Source: Candidatus Altimarinota bacterium
GTDB lineage: Bacteria; Patescibacteriota; Gracilibacteria; BD1-5; UBA6164
Assembly: GCA_027066255.1 (NCBI GenBank)
Contig: JAMOOA010000008.1
Location: 1 to 18,819, forward strand
DNA: 18,819 nucleotides
Reading direction: 5' to 3'
Below the pieces are notes generated by a model. It was not told the DNA's origin, searched no databases, and saw only the letters and a list, made by a program, of their open reading frames with translations. The position numbers and the translations under genes were made by a program. Shown here piece after piece: positions 8,851 through 18,098 of this stretch (the stretch's first letter is position 1; every line of letters starts with the position of its first letter).

Positions 8851-11800
8851 ATGAAAGAATTTTTCACGAGTAAGAAGTTTATCTATGGTATCATTACTGG
8901 AGTCTTAATAATCATTTTGTGAGTAGTAGGTGTTTTTGGATATAAAAAATACCAGGTATACCAGGCAGAAAAACAGGTTGCAGTTATTAATGATATCGTT
9001 GATGCAGGTATTACTAATAGAGACACATGTAAAATCGTACTTGATTTTGATAAGAGTCTGGTATCAAAGGATAATGAGTTTTTCAAAGAGACTACGTATG
9101 ACGCATTTCGAGCAGACTGTGATAATCAGTACAACATCGCAAATGCTGAGATGAAGTTGGAGTTCTGCAGCGAGGTCATTAAATGACGTAAATGAAATTT
9201 TTCTGATAGATATATTGTACTGGATACTTTTTTTGATGTGCAGAAACAATGTAGCCTGAAATACCTCACAGCAACATTTTCAACGGGAAGTTTTTTTGAT
9301 ATAGAAAATGATTTCAAATCAAGCGTACACGTGAACTTCTCTCTTCCGTTTTTTGAGGATATCGTAGATACGCAGAGTGAAGAATTTCTCAAAAATAGAA
9401 TAGAAGCAAAAAAGAGACTGGTAGGTCTCTTGGAAATATCCCCAAAGGTAGATTTTGATGAAGAGGATATCGTCCTCTATGAAAAGAAAGCTATTCTCGA
9501 ATTCCCACTTGAACCACTCAAAGAGTATACTTTTTCCCTCAAGAGTTTTGATTCAGGGATAGAAGGGGAGAAGGTTAGGTCAGAGAAATTTGTCCTCAAA
9601 ACTCCAGAAAACAAGTTCTTTGGATTTAGAATCCTGAAAAAGATGACACTTTTCCAAGATACAGCTTCTCCGAAGTTGGAACTCCTTTCTTATGATTCTG
9701 GCAAGACAAAAACAAAGTTCAAAATCTGTAGAATAGACAATGAAACTTACGCAAAGATAGAAGTATTTCAGTCGCAAAAGGGACTTGCAGAAGCAAAGAA
9801 GAAGTTTTTCACCTCAGGGATTGATAGCCTCAAAACTTTTGATTGTAAAGAAAAAGAAGTGAGTTTTACAACAGAAAAATCAGGAACTAAACTCCAAAAA
9901 ACCACCTTTGACTTCACGGAAGAAATTGGGAATCCTGCAAGAAGTGGTCTTTATTATGTGACTTTTTCAGACCCAGAAGATAGAGTATTTAATGAGAGAG
10001 TTCAACCACCAGTATTTTTTGGAATTATAGATTCTCATATTACGATGAAAATTTCGAGAAATGGAGAAGCATTTTTCTTTGTAAATGATTTTTCTGGTAA
10101 GCCTCTTGCAAACCAAAACATCCGTGTATATGCAAATGAGTTTGTAGCAAAGGACACTCAGTGGAATAGAGAAAAGGGAGAATATGATGTGACGTATTTT
10201 TCTCCACTTGAAAAGAATGTATTTGGAACCTCTATTCTCTTATGAAAAACAGGAAGTGACGGAGTTCTCAAAGTAGATATGAAATGAAAAATAGACGATG
10301 TATTTGATAAAACTTTTGATTCTTGGGATTATGATTGGGATGGAAATTATAACTCATTTTTTATAACCTCAGCAAGTGATAGCAATCTGACATACGTTTC
10401 TTCGAAATGGAACGGAGGAATCTCTGCTTGGAATTTTGGGTATACACTCGGAGACAGTTGGTGGTATGGAGGAAATAGTGAAAATGCTGATGAGATACAA
10501 CTCGAGAGATGGTCAGGAGAAGAATCTGTTCTCTATAGCCACACCTACACAGACAGGAAACTTTACCTACCAGGAGAGGAAGTACATATCAAATCGGTTG
10601 TGAGAAACTCTGCAGATCTATCTATTCCCAAAGGAAAAGAACTAACTTTCAAGGTAACAGATGCAAATGGAGATGATATTCTCGAAAAAATACTCAAAGT
10701 AAGTGAGTTTGGAAGTCTCTCAGAGAAACTCAAACTTCCATCTTCAGCTCCTCTTGGAAGCTACCAGATATATCTTTATGATGGAGACAGCCAAGTAGGG
10801 AACAGTGGTTTCTCGGTAGAGGTATTTAAAAATCCAAAGTTCAAGAACGAAGTTATGTTGAAAACAACAGGACTCAACGGAGAACTGATAAAAATCAAAT
10901 CAACAGATGTAGAAAAAACCGACTGGGGATATGAGAGAAAAACATATACAGGAGACTTCAAGATACAGGCTTCGATTTCTTCTCAGTATTATTCGGGCTC
11001 TCCAGTGAAAAGTGGAGAGTATGACTACAAGGTCTATAAACAGTATTATTATGACAATAGTTATTGGGATGATTGTTATTATGGTTGTTACTGGGAACCA
11101 GAAAAAGAGTTCTACACCGAAGGAAAATGACATCTCGATGACAATGGAAGCGCAATTTTTGAAGTTCCTGTAGAGTTCAAATCAAACTATAGTGACTACA
11201 AATATATTGTTGAAGTAACAGTCAGAGATACAGCGGGAGATCAGATTTCAGGAACAAATTCTATTATCGCAAAACTCCCAAGTGAATTCAAGAGGTGGGA
11301 TCCAAACAGTGGAGTGTACTTCAAATCAGAAAAGAGGTTTTATAAACAAGGAGAAAAAGTGACTCTCGAGTGAGGTCTCATCAACGGGAAATTTGGAGCA
11401 GACTATAACGACAAGTTTCTTCTCATTATCAAGAAAAAGGATTACAAGACTTCGTATGTTGATGATGTCAGAGGCTACAAGAGACCTGTTACTTCCGTAG
11501 AAGAAACAGTAGAAAAAATCTTCGAAGTAAATGATACCAACTTCAAACTTGGATCAGATGGAAAACTCAAGTTAAATTATACTCTCAAGCAAACCGGAGA
11601 ATATGTATTTGAGTTTGGAAAGATAGACGATGAACTATTTTTCAACAGTAAAGACCTCATAGCAGAGTTTGAAAAGACGTGAGAGAAATACCTATCTCGA
11701 GACTTCTCAGGAAAACTTGAAGTAAACTGGGACAATTTTGATGCGCTTATTAGGTATTGCGATGAGAGCAAAGATGATTGCTCTGACGACAACCTCCTCA

Positions 11801-14800
11801 AACAATGGGGATGTTCAGAAAACTATATAGATGACACGTGCAGAGGAAAAGAAAAACAAACACAGATGTCCCAGAAATTCAAAGCGAGTAATCTCATTGA
11901 TTCAGATTCGAGGAAGTATTTCACGCTCATATCTTATGGAGATGCAAACGCAAAAAATCCAGTTCAAAGTGATAATAAGATAACGGTTCTTTCAGAAAAA
12001 GTGAGTTACCATCTCTGAGACACAGCTCGTGTTCTCGTGAGACTCCCATTTAGTAAGGGAAAAATACTTTGGACCATAGAAAAACAAGGAGTAATAGAAC
12101 ACGAATATATAGATGTTCCTGGAAATACGTTTTTCAAAGAATTCAGAATCGATGACAGTTTTATACCAAACACATATATCGGAGTTGTTGCGATAGATAC
12201 AGACTCCCTCTGTCCTCCGGACATCTCCCTCGCTGAGGGAGACAAGAACAATATTCCCCCTCAATGAGGGGGAGAAAGGGGGAGCTGCGTTCCAGAATAC
12301 AAAGTTGGATATACCGAAGTCGTTGTTGATAAAACGGACAAGAAAACACAAGTTTCTATCACCCCAAACAAAAAGAAATACGAACCAAGAGAAGAAGTGA
12401 TTCTGAACATCTCAGTCAAAGATACAAACAGAAGAGCAAAGAAATCAGAACTTACCGTGATGGTCGTAGATGATAGTCTCATTAGTTTGATGGGAAATAT
12501 CGATATGAATACTCTTGAGAAATTTTATAAGAAACTTCCATTTCAGATTCAAACGAGTATCACCAATCTTGCGATGCTCAAAAACTATTATTTCTCACGT
12601 CAAGGAGTTGTGGGAGGAAGTGGATTTGGAAACTTCAAATGAGGAGACAGTGCTGTTTCGAGTAGAAGTATCTTCAAAAATACTGCTTACTATAATCCAA
12701 GTGTTATCACTGATTCAAACGGGAAAGCTACCGTACAATTCCTTCTCCCTGATAATCTGACAAATTTTCGAGTGATGGTTATCTCAAACTCCAAAGACAA
12801 TTTCTTTGGGTATAGTGAAGACTTCATAGAAGTAAGAAAAGACGTCATCGTCGAAGACAGGACTCCACTTATTATCAGAGATGGGGACAAAATAGTGATA
12901 GGAGCAAATGTATTTAACACGACTGACAAAGAAATAGGATTCAAGGCAACACTGACTTCTCAATTTTTGAATATAGGAAAACAGGCAAGACCAGCAATGA
13001 TTGGTCCTGGAAAAAGCGAATTTATCTCTTGGGAAGTAACAGCCACTCCTGTGAGTGAAATGGGACAAGAAAAAATACCCTACACTATTAGTATTCTCTG
13101 AGATAGTGCGAAACATAGTGATAAAATACAAGGAAGTATCGCAATAGCACAGTCTCCTGTACTTTTGCAAAATAACTTTACTTCTGAGAGTATTGCAGAG
13201 TGAAAAGCGAAAGACTTCACTCTCAAACTTCCAAACAATACCAATACAGAGAGATCAACTTATGAACTCTCTATCTCGAATAATCCTCTTGCAGGAATCG
13301 AGAAAATACTTTCTAGTCTCGCAGTATATCCGTATGGATGTATCGAACAGACGCTCAGTAGTACGATGCCAAACGCAGTACTTTCGAAGTTCCTCAGGAT
13401 TCTCCCAGATCTTGGAGTATCAAAAAAGACCATAGACAAAAACCTCTCAGCAGGAATCGAGAGACTCAAGTCTATGCACTTAGAAAATGGAGGATTTGGA
13501 TACTGGCAAGGAGACAGCTCAGCTGACCTCGCGATTACTCCCTATGTTCTCAGGAGTTTACTTGAGATACAAGAATCAGGAGGAAATATAGAAAAACAAA
13601 TGATACAAAAAACAGCAGGCTATCTCGAAAAAAACTATTCAGGAGCAGCCGAAAATACACAAATAGAAATCCTCTGGGCACTTGCGAGACTCCACAGATG
13701 AGAATACAAGTGAGGGAAACTTACTCCTCTCTGACTTCAAAATCTCACAGACAGCTTTGATAGAACCAAGATGAGTAGACATGATCTCATTGCCTACACG
13801 TATGCTCTCGTGCTCGCTGATAGCAACAAATATAAAAACGTGATAGATGATAGTATCAAGATCCTCAAAGAAAAAATAAACAACAAAGAACAATACAATT
13901 ATAGTATTCATTACTATGACGGCCTTGACGACAAAGCGATATTTACACAGATGCTTATAGACTACAGCTTTGATAGTTCGTATGTTTCTGAGCGTATTAT
14001 GGAACTCTACGGACATGACTGGTCGAGTTATTATTATTCTACCAAAACAAAAAACGATGCGTTCCTCGCGTTTGCAAAATACATCGAAACCTATGGAAAA
14101 GACAACCTCAATACTCTCAAACTGACTCTAAATGGAAAGAGTAAGCAGATACAGATAGGAGAAGAACAAAACAGTTACAAAACAATCGTTCCACTCAGTG
14201 AAGTTCTCGAGAATGATCAGGTATCTCTTCAGATAGAAAACAAAAAAGGAACTCCATTTTTTGTAACTGCATCGATACATTCCTATCCTGCTGATCCACT
14301 CAAAGTTCCGAGTTATAGTAATGGAGTACAAATAAAAAGGGAGATATACGAGGTTACAGACGCAACAAAGCTCCAAGAGAAATGTAATTGGAGCAATGGA
14401 AACAGAACTTGTACTCAAGCATCTGGACTCACACTTCACAACTCTGATACTTTCAAAAAATGAACGACGTATAAGGTAAAACTCATAGCAACGTTTGATG
14501 AAAACAATCGCAGACAAAACCTCGTTATCGAGGATTATCTCCCAGCGAGTTTCAGGATACTCAACTCTCAGTTTCAAACCAACAGTATCGCAACATCACA
14601 AAACTCTTCCCAAAAATCATGGCAATGGTCTCATGTAGAGAATAGACCAGAAGTAGTCATGGCTCACGCGAAATACACCTGGGGAAATACGGCAACCTAC
14701 AACTACTTCGTCGTTACCGACTTTGCTGGGAGCTTCATCTATCCACCAGTAACAACGTATATGATGTATCAACCAGAGACAAGAGCAAATGGAGAGTTCA

Positions 14801-14820
14801 GGAGGATAGAGGTGAGATAG
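8851..14820 (+). CDS. giant alpha-2-macroglobulin family protein with thioester motif
   Basis: The frame encodes 1989 aa from ATG (8851) to TAG, with about 17 TGA codons read as Gly. An N-terminal membrane anchor spans residues 10-31, with no lipobox. The MG domain hallmark K-L-Y-L-P-G-E-E-V-H-I-K lies near 570, followed by a long MG/bait part, the V-V-D-D-S-L-I-S-L strand near 1205, and T-A-Y-Y-N-P then F-L-L-P-D-N-L-T-N-F-R of the CUB/TED region. The thioester motif C1497-I-E-Q1500 sits in P-Y-G-C context, so covalent trapping of proteases should be possible. Bacterial homologues (E. coli YfhM) are envelope anchored and usually about 1600 aa. Residues 1118-1145 are a translated palindromic element. 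pbpC lies downstream, as in other bacteria, but separated by inserted genes. Confidence 0.93.
12204..12284 (+). repeat. palindromic element copy A, in frame within the macroglobulin gene
   Basis: This is a full bipartite copy. The left module has CTCCCTC, a GTCC/GGAC mini-hairpin and TCTCCCTC/GAGGGAGA. After a 12-bp spacer, the right module has TCCCCCTC/GAGGGGGA and the outer arm AGGGGGAG. It has no TAA or TAG in any of the six frames, but its TGA at the right hairpin loop is in frame and would be read as Gly. The translated insert is rich in Pro, Gly, Asp and Ser and lies in a loop between two beta-strand segments. Confidence 0.85.
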
Positions 14821-14837
14821 GTTTTTTACTCAACTCA

Positions 14838-14955
14838 GCTCCCTCCGTCCTTCGGACACCTCCCTCCACGAGGGAGGACAAATAGTTAAGAACTGGAAGT
14901 AAAATTCCCCCTCGTGGAGGGGGAGAAGACTACAGTACAAAAAGTAGGGGGAGCT
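14838..14955 (+). repeat. palindromic element copy B, intergenic
   Basis: This is a full bipartite copy in the same orientation as copy A. GCTCCCTC, a GTCC-TTC-GGAC hairpin and CCTCCCTC/GAGGGAGG form the left module; a 27-bp AT-rich spacer follows; then CCCCCTC-GTG-GAGGGGG and the outer arm AGGGGGAGC. It fills most of the 159-bp gap between the macroglobulin stop and the DUF559 start, the only copy of the seven outside a gene. Confidence 0.85.
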
Positions 14956-14979
14956 ATAACTATGTAAAAAATAGAAGCT

Positions 14980-15510
14980 ATGTTTGAAATTACACCAGAA
15001 TTTCTAAAATCCAGAGGACTCATAAAGGCAAATAACAGATTACCTTATAATCCTAAGTTAAAAGAAAGAGTCAGAGAATTACGAAAAAATATGACAAAAG
15101 CTGAGAAAAAATTACGGTTTGAGTTTTTACTTCCTCTCTCTAAAAAAGCTCCCCCTCAATCCCCCTCAACTGAGGGGGAAGCGAACTCAAGAATTTGAGT
15201 GAGCAGGGGGAGTAAACTCAGGATATACAGGCAACGAGCTATAGATAACTTTATCGTAGATTTTTTTATTCCTCAATATAAGCTCGTTATTGAACTTGAT
15301 GGAAACTCACACTATGAAGATGGAGCTCAAGAGTACGATAAGGAGCGAACAAAAATTCTAGAATGATATGGCTTGAAAATAATTAGATTTACAAATGATG
15401 AAGTGTATAATAGTTTTGAAGGAGTTTGTGAGAAAATATTATTTTATATAGATATAAAATTACATGGAAAAGAAATTAAAGACAGTTTTACTATGAGCTA
15501 TAGAAAATAA
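14980..15510 (+). CDS. DUF559 (Vsr-like) endonuclease-domain protein with translated palindromic insert
   Basis: The frame encodes 176 aa from ATG to TAA with two TGA codons read as Gly. Residues 25-56 match the DUF559 start (L-R-K-N-M-T-K-A-E-K-K-L). Residues 80-150 hold the PD-(D/E)xK-type core: R-Q-R-A-I-D-N-F-I-V-D-F-F, V-I-E-L-D-G-N-S-H-Y and I-I-R-F-T-N-D-E-V. Vsr and relatives cut DNA at specific sites; no DUF559 function is established. Between these parts, residues 57-78 come from palindromic element C and have no counterpart in the family. The last 15 residues overlap the next gene in another frame and look non-native. The gene interrupts the usual macroglobulin-pbpC pairing, consistent with insertion. 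Confidence 0.85.
15149..15212 (+). repeat. palindromic element copy C, in frame within the DUF559 gene
   Basis: This is a half element: outer arm CTCCCCCT, inner hairpin TCCCCCTCA/TGAGGGGGA, a variable segment with ACTCAA/TTGAGT, and outer arm AGGGGGAG. Its first 38 bp and last 14 bp are identical to copy D in pbpC. It has no TAA or TAG in any frame; its in-frame TGA (15196-15198) is read as Gly. Confidence 0.88.
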
Positions 15511-15865
15511 TAAGACCTGAAAGTTAAAAAGTATATTAAGAGAACAGCCAATAGTATATTTTTTATGAGAAGACTTCGCGGAGGAATATATGAAAAAGAG
15601 AAGAGAAAAGAAGATATTTTTACAATCACTTAGATTGACGCAAGATATTTTTGATACAAAACTCCATACAGATTATAAATGATATTTCAAAGAGGTAAGA
15701 CATGTTTCTGTTTGATCAGATATCTTAAACTGTGATGGGGTATTTTTATGGGATAATAAAGTAGCTATTTTTAATATAAAAGATGAAAGATATGAACTTT
15801 ATGATGATAGTAAAATATATAAAAAATACATAGAAATATTTGAGAAATACTGGAATAATGATTAA
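15464..15865 (+). CDS. TrmB-like regulator C-terminal fragment
   Basis: Under code 25 the frame runs from ATG (15464) to TAA (15865), 133 aa, with five TGA codons. Residues 30-133 resemble the effector half of TrmB-type regulators: I-V-Y-F-L-G, E-E-Y-M-K-K-R-R-E-K-K, K-E-V-R-H-V, W-D-N-K-V-A-I-F and the closing Y-I-E-I-F-E-K-Y-W. The N-terminal winged helix is missing, because an in-frame TAA lies just upstream and the DUF559 gene occupies that space with a 47-bp overlap. A good GGAGG lies 5 bp before an internal ATG at 15590 (91 aa), which may be the start used today. It overlaps pbpC by 8 bp. It is probably a remnant of a regulator truncated by the insertion; family assignment is moderate. 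Confidence 0.6.
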
Positions 15866-18098
15866 AAGAATAATCTTTATCACTTCCTTCCTCCTCACAG
15901 TACTCTTCCTCACGTACTGTTTTTACCCAGTCATCATCTACGATACCAAACTTTCCCAGCACGTAAATCATTCTCCAGCAGAATCATTGGCTCCGTGAAG
16001 GATATACCTGATTGATAGGAATGGGGAAGTAATAACGGACAAGATGTACCCAAATGGATACTATAAGTTTATAGATACTTCAGAGTGTTTTTCTCCCCCT
16101 CAATCCCCCTCAACTGAGGGGGAAGCGAACCTTGGTGAGCAGGGGGAGTTTTCTTGCAAATTCGTCCAAGCTCTTATTCAGGTTGAGGACAAGAACTATT
16201 ATTCTCACTGGGGAGTAAATCTGCCAGCAAAACTGAGAGCGATAAGGGATAATTTCTCAGGAAAAAGAGTCAGTGGAGGAAGCACGATAACCGAGCAGTA
16301 CGTAAAAAATAAGTATTTCAAGAATCACAAGAGAAGCTATCTCCAAAAGATGAGAGAAGCTGTCTTAGCTCTGTATTTCAGCCTCCCTCGTGGAGGGAGG
16401 TGGCTGAGCGAAAGCGAAGACGGAGGGAGTAAGTTCATTACTCAAAAAAATCACATTCTCAACATCTATTATCATGATGCGTATTTTGGAAATCACCTCT
16501 ACGGAGTCGGTGCTGCGATAGAAGTATACTTTGGAAAAGAGAGCTTAGAGGATTTGACTGAGGAGGAGATAGTGATACTTTTGAGTCTCCTTCATAATCC
16601 TGGGATACAGTCTCTTGAGGAAGAATATTTCAGAACATACTTTGACCAAGTAAAACAGAGGCTTGGATATGATTTCAAGAGAACTTATACAGGAAAACTC
16701 CCACAAAAAAACAATATCGATAGGTTTCCATTTGTGACGCAGAACGCAAAAAAGCTCCCCCTACTTCCTGGACATAGTTTTCTCCCTCTCGATGAGGGGG
16801 AACTCTGAGTCCTCCCTCATCGAGGTAAGGTGAATTACGAAGTAAGAGAGGACACTCTGGAGTGGAGGTGTCCGAAGGACGGAGGGAGTTGTAGTTGAGT
16901 AGAAAGCACACTTTCTATCGATGCAGAACTTCAGCAATTCTCCAAAGATATTTTGAACCAAACCCTCTCTGAACTCAAGGGAAAAAATGTAACCAATGGA
17001 GCCATATTTGCGATAAAACCATCTTCATGAGAAGTGCTGATATACCAAGGAAGCAAGGACTTTTATGCAAGTGATATAGATGGACAGGTTGATGTCATCC
17101 AAGCTCGCAGACAACCAGGAAGTACCATGAAACCATTTTTGTATTTACTGGCTCTTGAATCTGGAGCAAACCCTGATGACTTGATACTGGATATAGAGAG
17201 CGAATACAACTCCTTTCAAGAAGGGAAAGTCTATATCTCAGAGAATTATTCTCTGAAGCAATACGGACTGGTACGACTCAAAAAAGCTCTTGGAAATAGT
17301 TTTAACAATGCCTCGGTGAGACTTGGTCGAGAACTCGGACTTCAAAAAGTGTATGAGTTTTATGAAAAATACGGCTTTGAATTCGATTTCTGAGCCGAAC
17401 ATTATGGTTATTCTCTCGTTCTTGGAAATCCGAGTATTCCTCTTGAGGGTTTAGTAAGGAGTTACGCGCAGTTGTTACCAGCGACAACTCCCCCTGTCTT
17501 CGTAAACTCAGACATCCCCCTCCATGAGGGGGAACAAGTTGACTTTCAAAAAAAACAAGAGTCTCCCTCATGGAGGGAGATGTCCGAAGGACAGAGGGAG
17601 CGTGTCAACAAGTTCCTCCTGTACGATATCCTTTCTGATTCAGATAATAGAGATGTGAGTTTCGGGGTAAATTCTATCCTCAATACCTCCATCCCCCAAG
17701 CTGTAAAGACGGGAACGAGTAGTGACTTCCGTGATAACCTGGTTCTATCATATCATCCTGACTTCGTACTCGGAGCTTGGATAGGGAACAATGACAATTC
17801 TTCTATGCAGGGAGTTACAGGTATCACGTGAGCTGGATATGTCTGGCATCAAATTATTGAAAAAGCTATTTCTCTTGGGTATATTTCTGACAGAGAGATT
17901 CCGCTTCCAGAATGAATTACCAATACTCACTATTGTCTCGATAGTAAGTGTTTCCGAAGAGAGAATATTTACTCAAGATCAGAGAAACAGTATGAATCGA
18001 GACTTGCAGAAGGAAGCTTTGCAAGAGAGGATGTGTATGAGAGTCTGAGTCAGTATGAAATTTCAAAGTTGGAAGAGTTATGAATAGAGATGAGGTAG
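15858..18098 (+). CDS. pbpC: penicillin-binding protein 1C with four palindromic inserts
   Basis: The frame encodes 746 aa from ATG (overlapping the previous stop by 8 bp) to TAG, with eight TGA codons read as Gly. An N-terminal membrane anchor spans residues 4-24. The GT51 transglycosylase follows, with catalytic Glu110 in Q-V-E-D-K-N-Y-Y-S-H-W-G and G-G-S-T-I-T-E-Q near 140. The transpeptidase has Ser422 in S-T-M-K, S481-F-N483 and K617-T-G-T, then the PBP1C-like N-N-D-N-S-S-M and G-V-T-G region. All catalytic motifs are intact, so it should polymerise and crosslink peptidoglycan. Residues about 79-97, 175-191, 299-344 and 544-581 are encoded by palindromic elements D-G and sit between conserved blocks. 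The C-terminal PBP1C domain is shortened. Pairing with the macroglobulin matches E. coli yfhM-pbpC. Confidence 0.93.
16093..16148 (+). repeat. palindromic element copy D, in frame within pbpC
   Basis: This half element has outer arms CTCCCCCT and AGGGGGAG and the inner hairpin TCCCCCTCA/TGAGGGGGA. It shares its first 38 bp with copy C and is translated in the same frame as C (P-P-Q-S-P-S-T-E-G-E-A-N). It ends about 12 codons before the catalytic Glu of the transglycosylase. Confidence 0.88.
16382..16429 (+). repeat. palindromic element copy E, in frame within pbpC
   Basis: This is a half element of the other type: hairpin CCTCCCTC-GTG-GAGGGAGG, a 22-bp segment with GCGAAAGC, then outer arm GAGGGAG. 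The left outer arm is absent or merged with the hairpin. It encodes a Gly/Ser/Glu-rich loop inside the transglycosylase domain, between two helices of the conserved fold. Confidence 0.8.
16754..16888 (+). repeat. palindromic element copy F, degenerate, in frame within pbpC
   Basis: This is a long, decayed bipartite copy: left outer arm GCTCCCCCT, an imperfect CCCTC/GAGGGGG hairpin, a spacer, a decayed CCTCCCTC module, and an intact right end with GTCC-GAA-GGAC and GAGGGAG. It encodes about 45 residues in the linker between transglycosylase and transpeptidase. One TGA is in frame. Confidence 0.75.
17488..17600 (-). repeat. palindromic element copy G, in frame within pbpC (opposite orientation to A)
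   Basis: This full bipartite copy has the modules in reverse order to copies A and B: CTCCCCCTGTC arm, TCCCCCTC/GAGGGGGA hairpin, a 28-bp spacer, TCTCCCTC/GAGGGAGA hairpin, TGTCC-GAA-GGACA and the outer arm GAGGGAG. It is translated as about 38 residues in the transpeptidase domain between the SxN and KTG motifs. A TAA lies in the arm but out of frame. Confidence 0.87.

Follow-up and report, generated by a model that had tools for sequence, protein, structure and literature searches.

The DNA considered here (the window) is a stretch of 18,819 nucleotides from Candidatus Altimarinota bacterium, namely contig C8 of a 984-kb genome in 210 contigs that is read with genetic code 25. Between positions 12204 and 17604 it carries seven GC-rich palindromic elements, A to G, of which six lie in frame inside genes and one, B, is intergenic, and among them is a gene of the DUF559 family (PF04480, a nuclease of Vsr-like fold; 14980-15510, + strand). 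These palindromes are likely to be satellites of a DUF559-based mobile element that is found in several phyla. A preliminary description of the window had taken DUF559 as one host gene; in several phyla it is DUF559 itself that lies between such palindromes. The explanation that we consider probable is that these are mobile elements with an autonomous form, palindrome-DUF559-palindrome, and that solo palindromes, A to G included, are non-autonomous copies, with DUF559 as the putative mobilising enzyme.

Palindromes of this kind stand on either side of DUF559 genes in bacteria of the candidate phyla radiation (CPR), in cyanobacteria and in several further groups. Perfect hairpins (stem of at least 8, loop of 3-8, at least half of the stem GC) were counted by their distance from the PF04480 domain. 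For the other families of this phylum the places fetched were the top 40 by score for DUF559 and the top 40 for GIY-YIG. At the DUF559 loci hairpin density was 8.57/kb within 100 bp compared with 0.168/kb at 2-4 kb, and a hairpin was present within 250 bp in 37/40 and on both sides in 31/40; the corresponding densities at the GIY-YIG control loci were 0.76 and 0.10 per kb, with a hairpin within 250 bp in 7/40 and on both sides in 1/40. Within the same 40 DUF559 loci a hairpin lay within 100 bp of an end for 35/40 DUF559 genes and for 8/134 other open reading frames (ORFs) of at least 150 aa. The window's own family is represented by 60 loci with 64 domains counted out of 97 DUF559 matches, the remaining 33 being either not fetched or outside the stretches. 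Here the density was 3.12/kb within 100 bp and 0.054/kb at 4-8 kb, with a hairpin in the domain itself or up to 500 bp from it at 32/60 loci and within 250 bp at 32/64 domains. A third set, of 80 loci from named genomes, is mostly cyanobacterial and gave 6.37/kb within 100 bp against 0.128/kb at 4-6 kb, with a hairpin within 250 bp at 73/80 and on both sides at 45/80. The 18 loci of this set labelled as non-cyanobacterial, which include nine named groups, gave 4.59 against 0.07 per kb when taken alone (within 250 bp 16/18, both sides 7/18).

Pyrimidine 5' arms were found in 291 of 323 hairpins near DUF559, in 77 of 173 far from it and in 1 of 37 at GIY-YIG loci. The flanks in Nostoc read as hairpin-GGGGGGATC-ORF-GATCCCCCC-hairpin, and two loci, L132 and L194, hold complete elements with the same extra mini-hairpin as the window copies. 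A covariance model, R1, was built from ten hairpin modules of the window copies alone, which it therefore finds again by construction. This model matches palindromes beside DUF559 in Stahlbacteria and others, and in a Nitrospirae genome (L194) it reaches 47 bits on one located about 45 bp upstream of the nuclease gene. When neighbours were assigned by eye, DUF559 had an R1 neighbour in 7/12 cases in the window's clade compared with 3/52 elsewhere (p 1.2e-4), or in 6/11 compared with 3/52 (p 4.5e-4) once the window, a neighbour by the way the model was built, is left out. The window's own genome has another DUF559 gene (L004; C174:5492-5821), with palindromes on both sides that, judged by eye, are imperfect and AT-richer.

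The left and right palindromes match each other and co-vary with the nuclease. Both sides were present in 91 of 184 domains, and the similarity of the left palindrome to the reverse complement of the right was above all 200 shuffles in each of three sets (0.88 vs 0.79, 0.85 vs 0.59 and 0.72 vs 0.56). The inverted orientation fitted better in 57 of the 91 domains and the direct orientation in 21, with 13 ties. Similarity between nuclease proteins correlated with similarity between their palindromes at rho 0.35, 0.34 and 0.63, values uncorrected for phylogeny and reached in 0/500 permutations each. Among pairs of loci from the same genome rho was 0.55 (17 pairs, p 0.02) and 0.51 (9 pairs, p 0.16).

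Mobility of one DUF559 cassette is seen in its presence and absence among sister genomes. The recG gene of G024 contains a cassette of about 533 bp whose flanking sequences are contiguous in G021, G023 and G026 of the same genus. The resulting fusion contains the RecG wedge, DUF559, DEAD and Helicase_C domains of Pfam in one protein. The same region of recG, near residue 312, holds DUF559 in 11 of the 60 fetched loci (L066, L070, L071, L073, L075, L076, L077, L078, L086, L097 and L109), and all 11 form one open frame of 816-874 aa in which a whole DUF559 nuclease stands in frame between the GKT and APTE motifs, adjoined by palindrome-derived peptides. A twelfth such resident, in G025, is cut by the contig end and lies outside this count; other recG inserts occur in G040 and G019, and an uninterrupted RecG match is present in 26/48 genomes. 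In a DUF559 tree the recG residents need 9 label changes, at least 7 of them forced by supported branches, although 10 of the 11 fall in one group of 17 rows and the alignment behind the tree has only 108 columns. A single clade of recG residents is rejected (approximately unbiased test, p 8e-5), and DUF559 has therefore entered recG more than once or has moved out of it repeatedly. The boundaries of the recG cassettes differ by some codons, so that this repeated occupation may reflect a loop that tolerates inserts and not an exact target. Beside recG in G024 there are two further indels, one AT-rich and without a palindrome and one resembling a palindrome pair that G026 does not have. Comparison of 21 loci shows 7, six of them in one genus, where the alpha-2-macroglobulin family (A2M) gene and the pbpC gene, which stand on either side of DUF559 in the window, abut without it; DUF559 lies between them in G000 and G027.

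Within the window the seven copies lie in 5.4 kb, with none elsewhere, and the R1 search bears out the preliminary description on this point. When folded as single-stranded DNA all seven beat their shuffles (z -2.4 to -6.9, with 0-2 of 200 shuffles equally good). The usual unit has an outer arm, (A)GCTCCC..GGGAGC(T), that closes one or two hairpins with pyrimidine 5' arms, for example TCCCCCTCnnnGAGGGGGA, often together with a small extra hairpin, TGTCCgaaGGACA. Copies A (12204-12290), B (14837-14956), F (16755-16892) and G (17487-17604) each consist of two modules, paired in inverted orientation; E (16381-16431) is one module, and C (15148-15213) and D (16091-16151) are short single hairpins that have an identical stretch of 38 nt in common. 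Copy A adds about 29 aa in frame to the product of the A2M gene (8851-14820, + strand). Copy B lies between A2M and DUF559 and is the upstream palindrome of the nuclease gene, which itself holds copy C in frame, and D to G are in frame in the gene for a pbpC-like penicillin-binding protein (15840-18098, + strand). The six genic copies do leave their frames open as had been claimed, in the case of A, C and F by way of an in-frame TGA that is read, as glycine, under code 25 only. Over these six copies 31 of 36 frames are open under code 25 and 15 of 36 under the standard code. Strict stem patterns were tried as a detector and missed most copies because the loops vary, and R1 was used instead. 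An Rfam search of window positions 12000-17800 returned nine matches at E <= 1, none of them near the gathering score of its family.

Cassettes and solo palindromes can insert in frame with the host ORF staying open, and the host proteins exist with and without the inserts. Of 120 homologues listed for each protein, 15 were aligned for pbpC, 21 for A2M and 23 for DUF559, and insert-free homologues were found for all three; for pbpC and A2M unrelated taxa are hardly sampled. In the pbpC and A2M alignments conserved blocks flank the inserts and many close relatives have no counterpart of them. Three pbpC homologues that are 69-73% identical in the alignment (P0122, P0127 and P0129) have none of D, E, F and G, and a fourth (P0128, 74% identical) has E in common with the window and lacks the other three; the A2M homologues P0241, P0243 and P0245 are without A. 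At the same loops, inserts of apparent palindrome origin, either related or different, occur in P0123, P0124, P0125, P0126, P0138 and P0147 of pbpC and in P0242, P0248 and P0253 of A2M. An F-like insert is present in P0123 and P0124, which are more distant from the window's pbpC than P0128 is. At the site of C 14 of the 23 DUF559 homologues have some insert and 9 have none. This site is a loop that joins a helix to the first strand of the nuclease core and is modelled with low confidence (predicted local distance difference test score < 50 at residues 61-76). The claim that the inserted residues have no counterpart in their protein families stands for the many insert-free homologues and does not hold for some relatives within the group, which carry residues at these places.

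The palindromes are also dispersed as solo copies. Elsewhere in the window's genome R1 found strong matches, unused in building the model, in contigs C29 (E 1.7e-12), C32 (1.3e-10), C14 (1.9e-8) and C198 (2.2e-7), and weak ones in C21 and C22 (E 0.02). The strong matches show that the family is not confined to the window locus, although 7 of about 11 strong places in the genome sit in the 5.4 kb around the DUF559 gene. Each of the four lies inside a putative host ORF of 305-427 aa. Of 20 R1 places fetched from outside the window 8, including all four from the same genome, are surrounded by an ORF that extends for 40 aa or more to each side. In the family as a whole 30 of 48 genomes have matches at E <= 0.1, with up to 62 per genome, and a second dense cluster surrounds the syntenic pbpC-DUF559 locus of G027. 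The copies are therefore neither unique to one locus nor matched by residues at the same places in every relative, and the preliminary proposal of a translated selfish palindrome family in code-25 CPR bacteria is supported by the in-frame inserts, the variable homologues and the dispersed copies together.

The DUF559 protein of the window matches PF04480 with 85.7 bits (cut-off 20.6). Among solved structures its single sequence relative at E <= 1 is 3hrl, and by fold its structure model best matches 3hrl again and I-Bth0305I (3r3p), a homing endonuclease of Vsr-like type, with Foldseek E values of 1.5e-3 and 2.2e-3. Such a fold would suit a nuclease that starts mobility by cutting, followed by repair through copying; we infer the cutting, its substrate and the repair route. 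In the mechanism proposed, a gene for a Vsr-like PD-(D/E)XK nuclease between two inverted palindromes would be the autonomous element. The nuclease would recognise an extruded palindrome or a target and cut, and the cut would be repaired by copying an element in, in a homing-like manner as for Vsr-like homing endonucleases. It would also act in trans on solo copies. Selection in gene-dense genomes would then keep the in-frame survivors, whose survival may be helped by the scarcity of TAA and TAG in most copies and by the reading of TGA as glycine.

A number of observations weigh against the idea of a DUF559-mobilised element. Under the strict hairpin rule 28 of the 60 loci in the window's own family have no hairpin within 500 bp, and hairpins on both sides occur at only 14 of 64 domains. 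The recG flanks in G024, diverged to 84-92% identity, overlap by 4-8 bp, which is not exact enough to fix a boundary or a target-site duplication. Loci L207, L208, L212 and L214 hold other, non-DUF559 sequence between A2M and pbpC, and this spot is therefore not special to DUF559. The correlations between nuclease and palindrome are corrected for phylogeny in same-genome pairs only, and no Foldseek match of the DUF559 model falls below E 1e-3. Cleavage and transposition are deduced and not observed. Two further points concern the distribution of R1. Of the 16 genomes with at least 5 R1 matches, G033 and G034 have no detected DUF559, and across the 48 genomes R1 counts track those of Y1 transposases (correlation 0.37) as well as, more strongly, those of DUF559 (0.62). 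These two points bear on rival explanations in which another enzyme moves the palindromes. It is conceivable, if rather unlikely, that they are selfish palindromes like the Rickettsia palindromic elements (RPE) with a mover of their own, and that DUF559 is a passenger or a preferred resident of palindrome-rich spots. The R1 copies of G033 and G034 would fit this, as would the fact that the DUF559 gene carries copy C just as other host genes carry theirs; a passenger, however, would hardly be bracketed so frequently (37/40 and 73/80, compared with 7 and, on both sides, 1 of 40 for GIY-YIG), often on two sides, by cognate palindromes and in several phyla.

Movement of elements like the repetitive extragenic palindromic (REP) sequences by a Y1 transposase, of the REP-associated tyrosine transposase (RAYT) or IS200 type, appears very improbable. 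The genome of the window has one Y1 transposase match and the counts are weakly correlated as given above, but G028, G034, G040 and G041 have no Y1 match despite 53, 16, 25 and 46 R1 matches, and a Y1 match is present in 7 of the 16 R1-rich genomes compared with DUF559 in 14. Somewhat less improbable, but still doubtful in the extreme, is that DUF559 is a host nuclease of repair or restriction type and the palindromes are recognition or regulatory sites kept for their function. The Vsr-like fold is in agreement with this, as are weak PADLOC matches, the best of them, at E 8e-7, with the model of a methyl-directed restriction enzyme; presence and absence between sister species, the fact that the recG residents have more than one origin and the inserts in unrelated coding genes argue against it. 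GC-rich hairpins are generally common near gene ends, but ordinary low-complexity or terminator-like hairpins, or an assembly artefact, can hardly account for copies that lie in frame inside genes, recur in independent assemblies and phyla and are far above two controls. We therefore retain the DUF559-based element as the probable explanation. That DUF559 nucleases drive a widespread class of bacterial mobile DNA, made up of cassettes and palindromic satellites and translated in housekeeping genes without splicing, seems to us evenly balanced between true and false.

Several known systems resemble the arrangement described here. As set out in PMC2817692, which also compares RAYT and REP trees, REP/RAYT systems have an enzyme gene between two inverted palindromes and many dispersed palindromes, and units of this kind (REPtrons, REPINs) are a close parallel in organisation. 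They differ in that the REP/RAYT enzyme is a Y1 transposase and not a Vsr-like PD-(D/E)XK nuclease, in that REP has a GT(A/G)G head where the present stems have pyrimidine arms and outer arms, and in the frequent in-frame insertion into genes seen here. No association of the present repeat with RAYT (Y1) was found, in that R1-rich genomes without a Y1 match exist, the neighbourhoods of the Y1 matches not having been read. RPE are palindromes that lie in frame inside protein genes of Rickettsia. An example of one in frame in a protein gene is given in PMC5656822. The present elements resemble RPE in that the palindromes lie in frame in coding genes that have homologues free of them, and are unlike RPE in their code-25 host and, presumably, in the bracketed nuclease. 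The parallel with I-Bth0305I and other Vsr-like homing endonucleases lies in the best fold match besides a DUF559 protein, in the repeated occupation of one conserved gene, recG, and in its occupied (G024) and empty (G021, G023 and G026) alleles. Unlike in homing endonuclease systems, no intron or intein was seen here, and there are bracketing palindromes and non-autonomous copies.

In the literature searched, which held no bioRxiv preprints and few subscription journals, no enzyme was assigned to the palindromic repeats of CPR bacteria or cyanobacteria, no paper linked DUF559 with palindromic, repetitive extragenic palindromic or inverted repeats, and none was found on a repeat or palindrome of ycjD, a DUF559 gene of Escherichia coli. 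DUF559 would be a candidate enzyme for repeats that are scattered through both groups, and a role is proposed for a domain still named 'unknown function', whole genes of which stand in frame inside a helicase gene. If a DUF559-driven class of this breadth is real, it would account for orphan repeats, the palindrome near E. coli ycjD among them, and the nearness of ycjD to such a repeat in E. coli K-12 makes the idea testable in a laboratory strain.

In E. coli K-12 ycjD is annotated as DUF559 and adjoins fabI. A palindrome lies about 170 bp past its end; 5375 of 5426 E. coli genomes match a 41-bp query from it, at a median of 16 places, and in 3364 of the 5426 coverage of the ycjD stretch reaches 80% or more. 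The region past ycjD (L315:5195-5435) contains, besides this dispersed palindrome, another hairpin that overlaps the 3' end of the gene. Another copy of the palindrome is beside tkt, and of the 5375 genomes with a match at the tkt-ypfG site 811 contain 80% or more of the query. This palindrome may be BoxC, a repeat first noted beside fabI; BoxC would then be a further dispersed palindrome near a DUF559 gene. The list of E. coli repeats in PMC2267715 gives BoxC 50 bp and 22 copies. As a clean empty-site system ycjD was rejected: of 14 listed rows with the fabI side only, the 3 that were read carry another operon beside fabI, and presence or absence of ycjD is therefore replacement and not simple insertion.

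Between DUF559 and pbpC the window has an open frame of 133 aa (15464-15865) with no match in Pfam, NCBIfam or PADLOC and no tblastn hit in the syntenic locus of G027. In host proteins of exported type, inserts A and D have cysteines close to each of their two ends and F has a pair of them near its end; it is possible that these residues form disulfide staples of the inserted loops.

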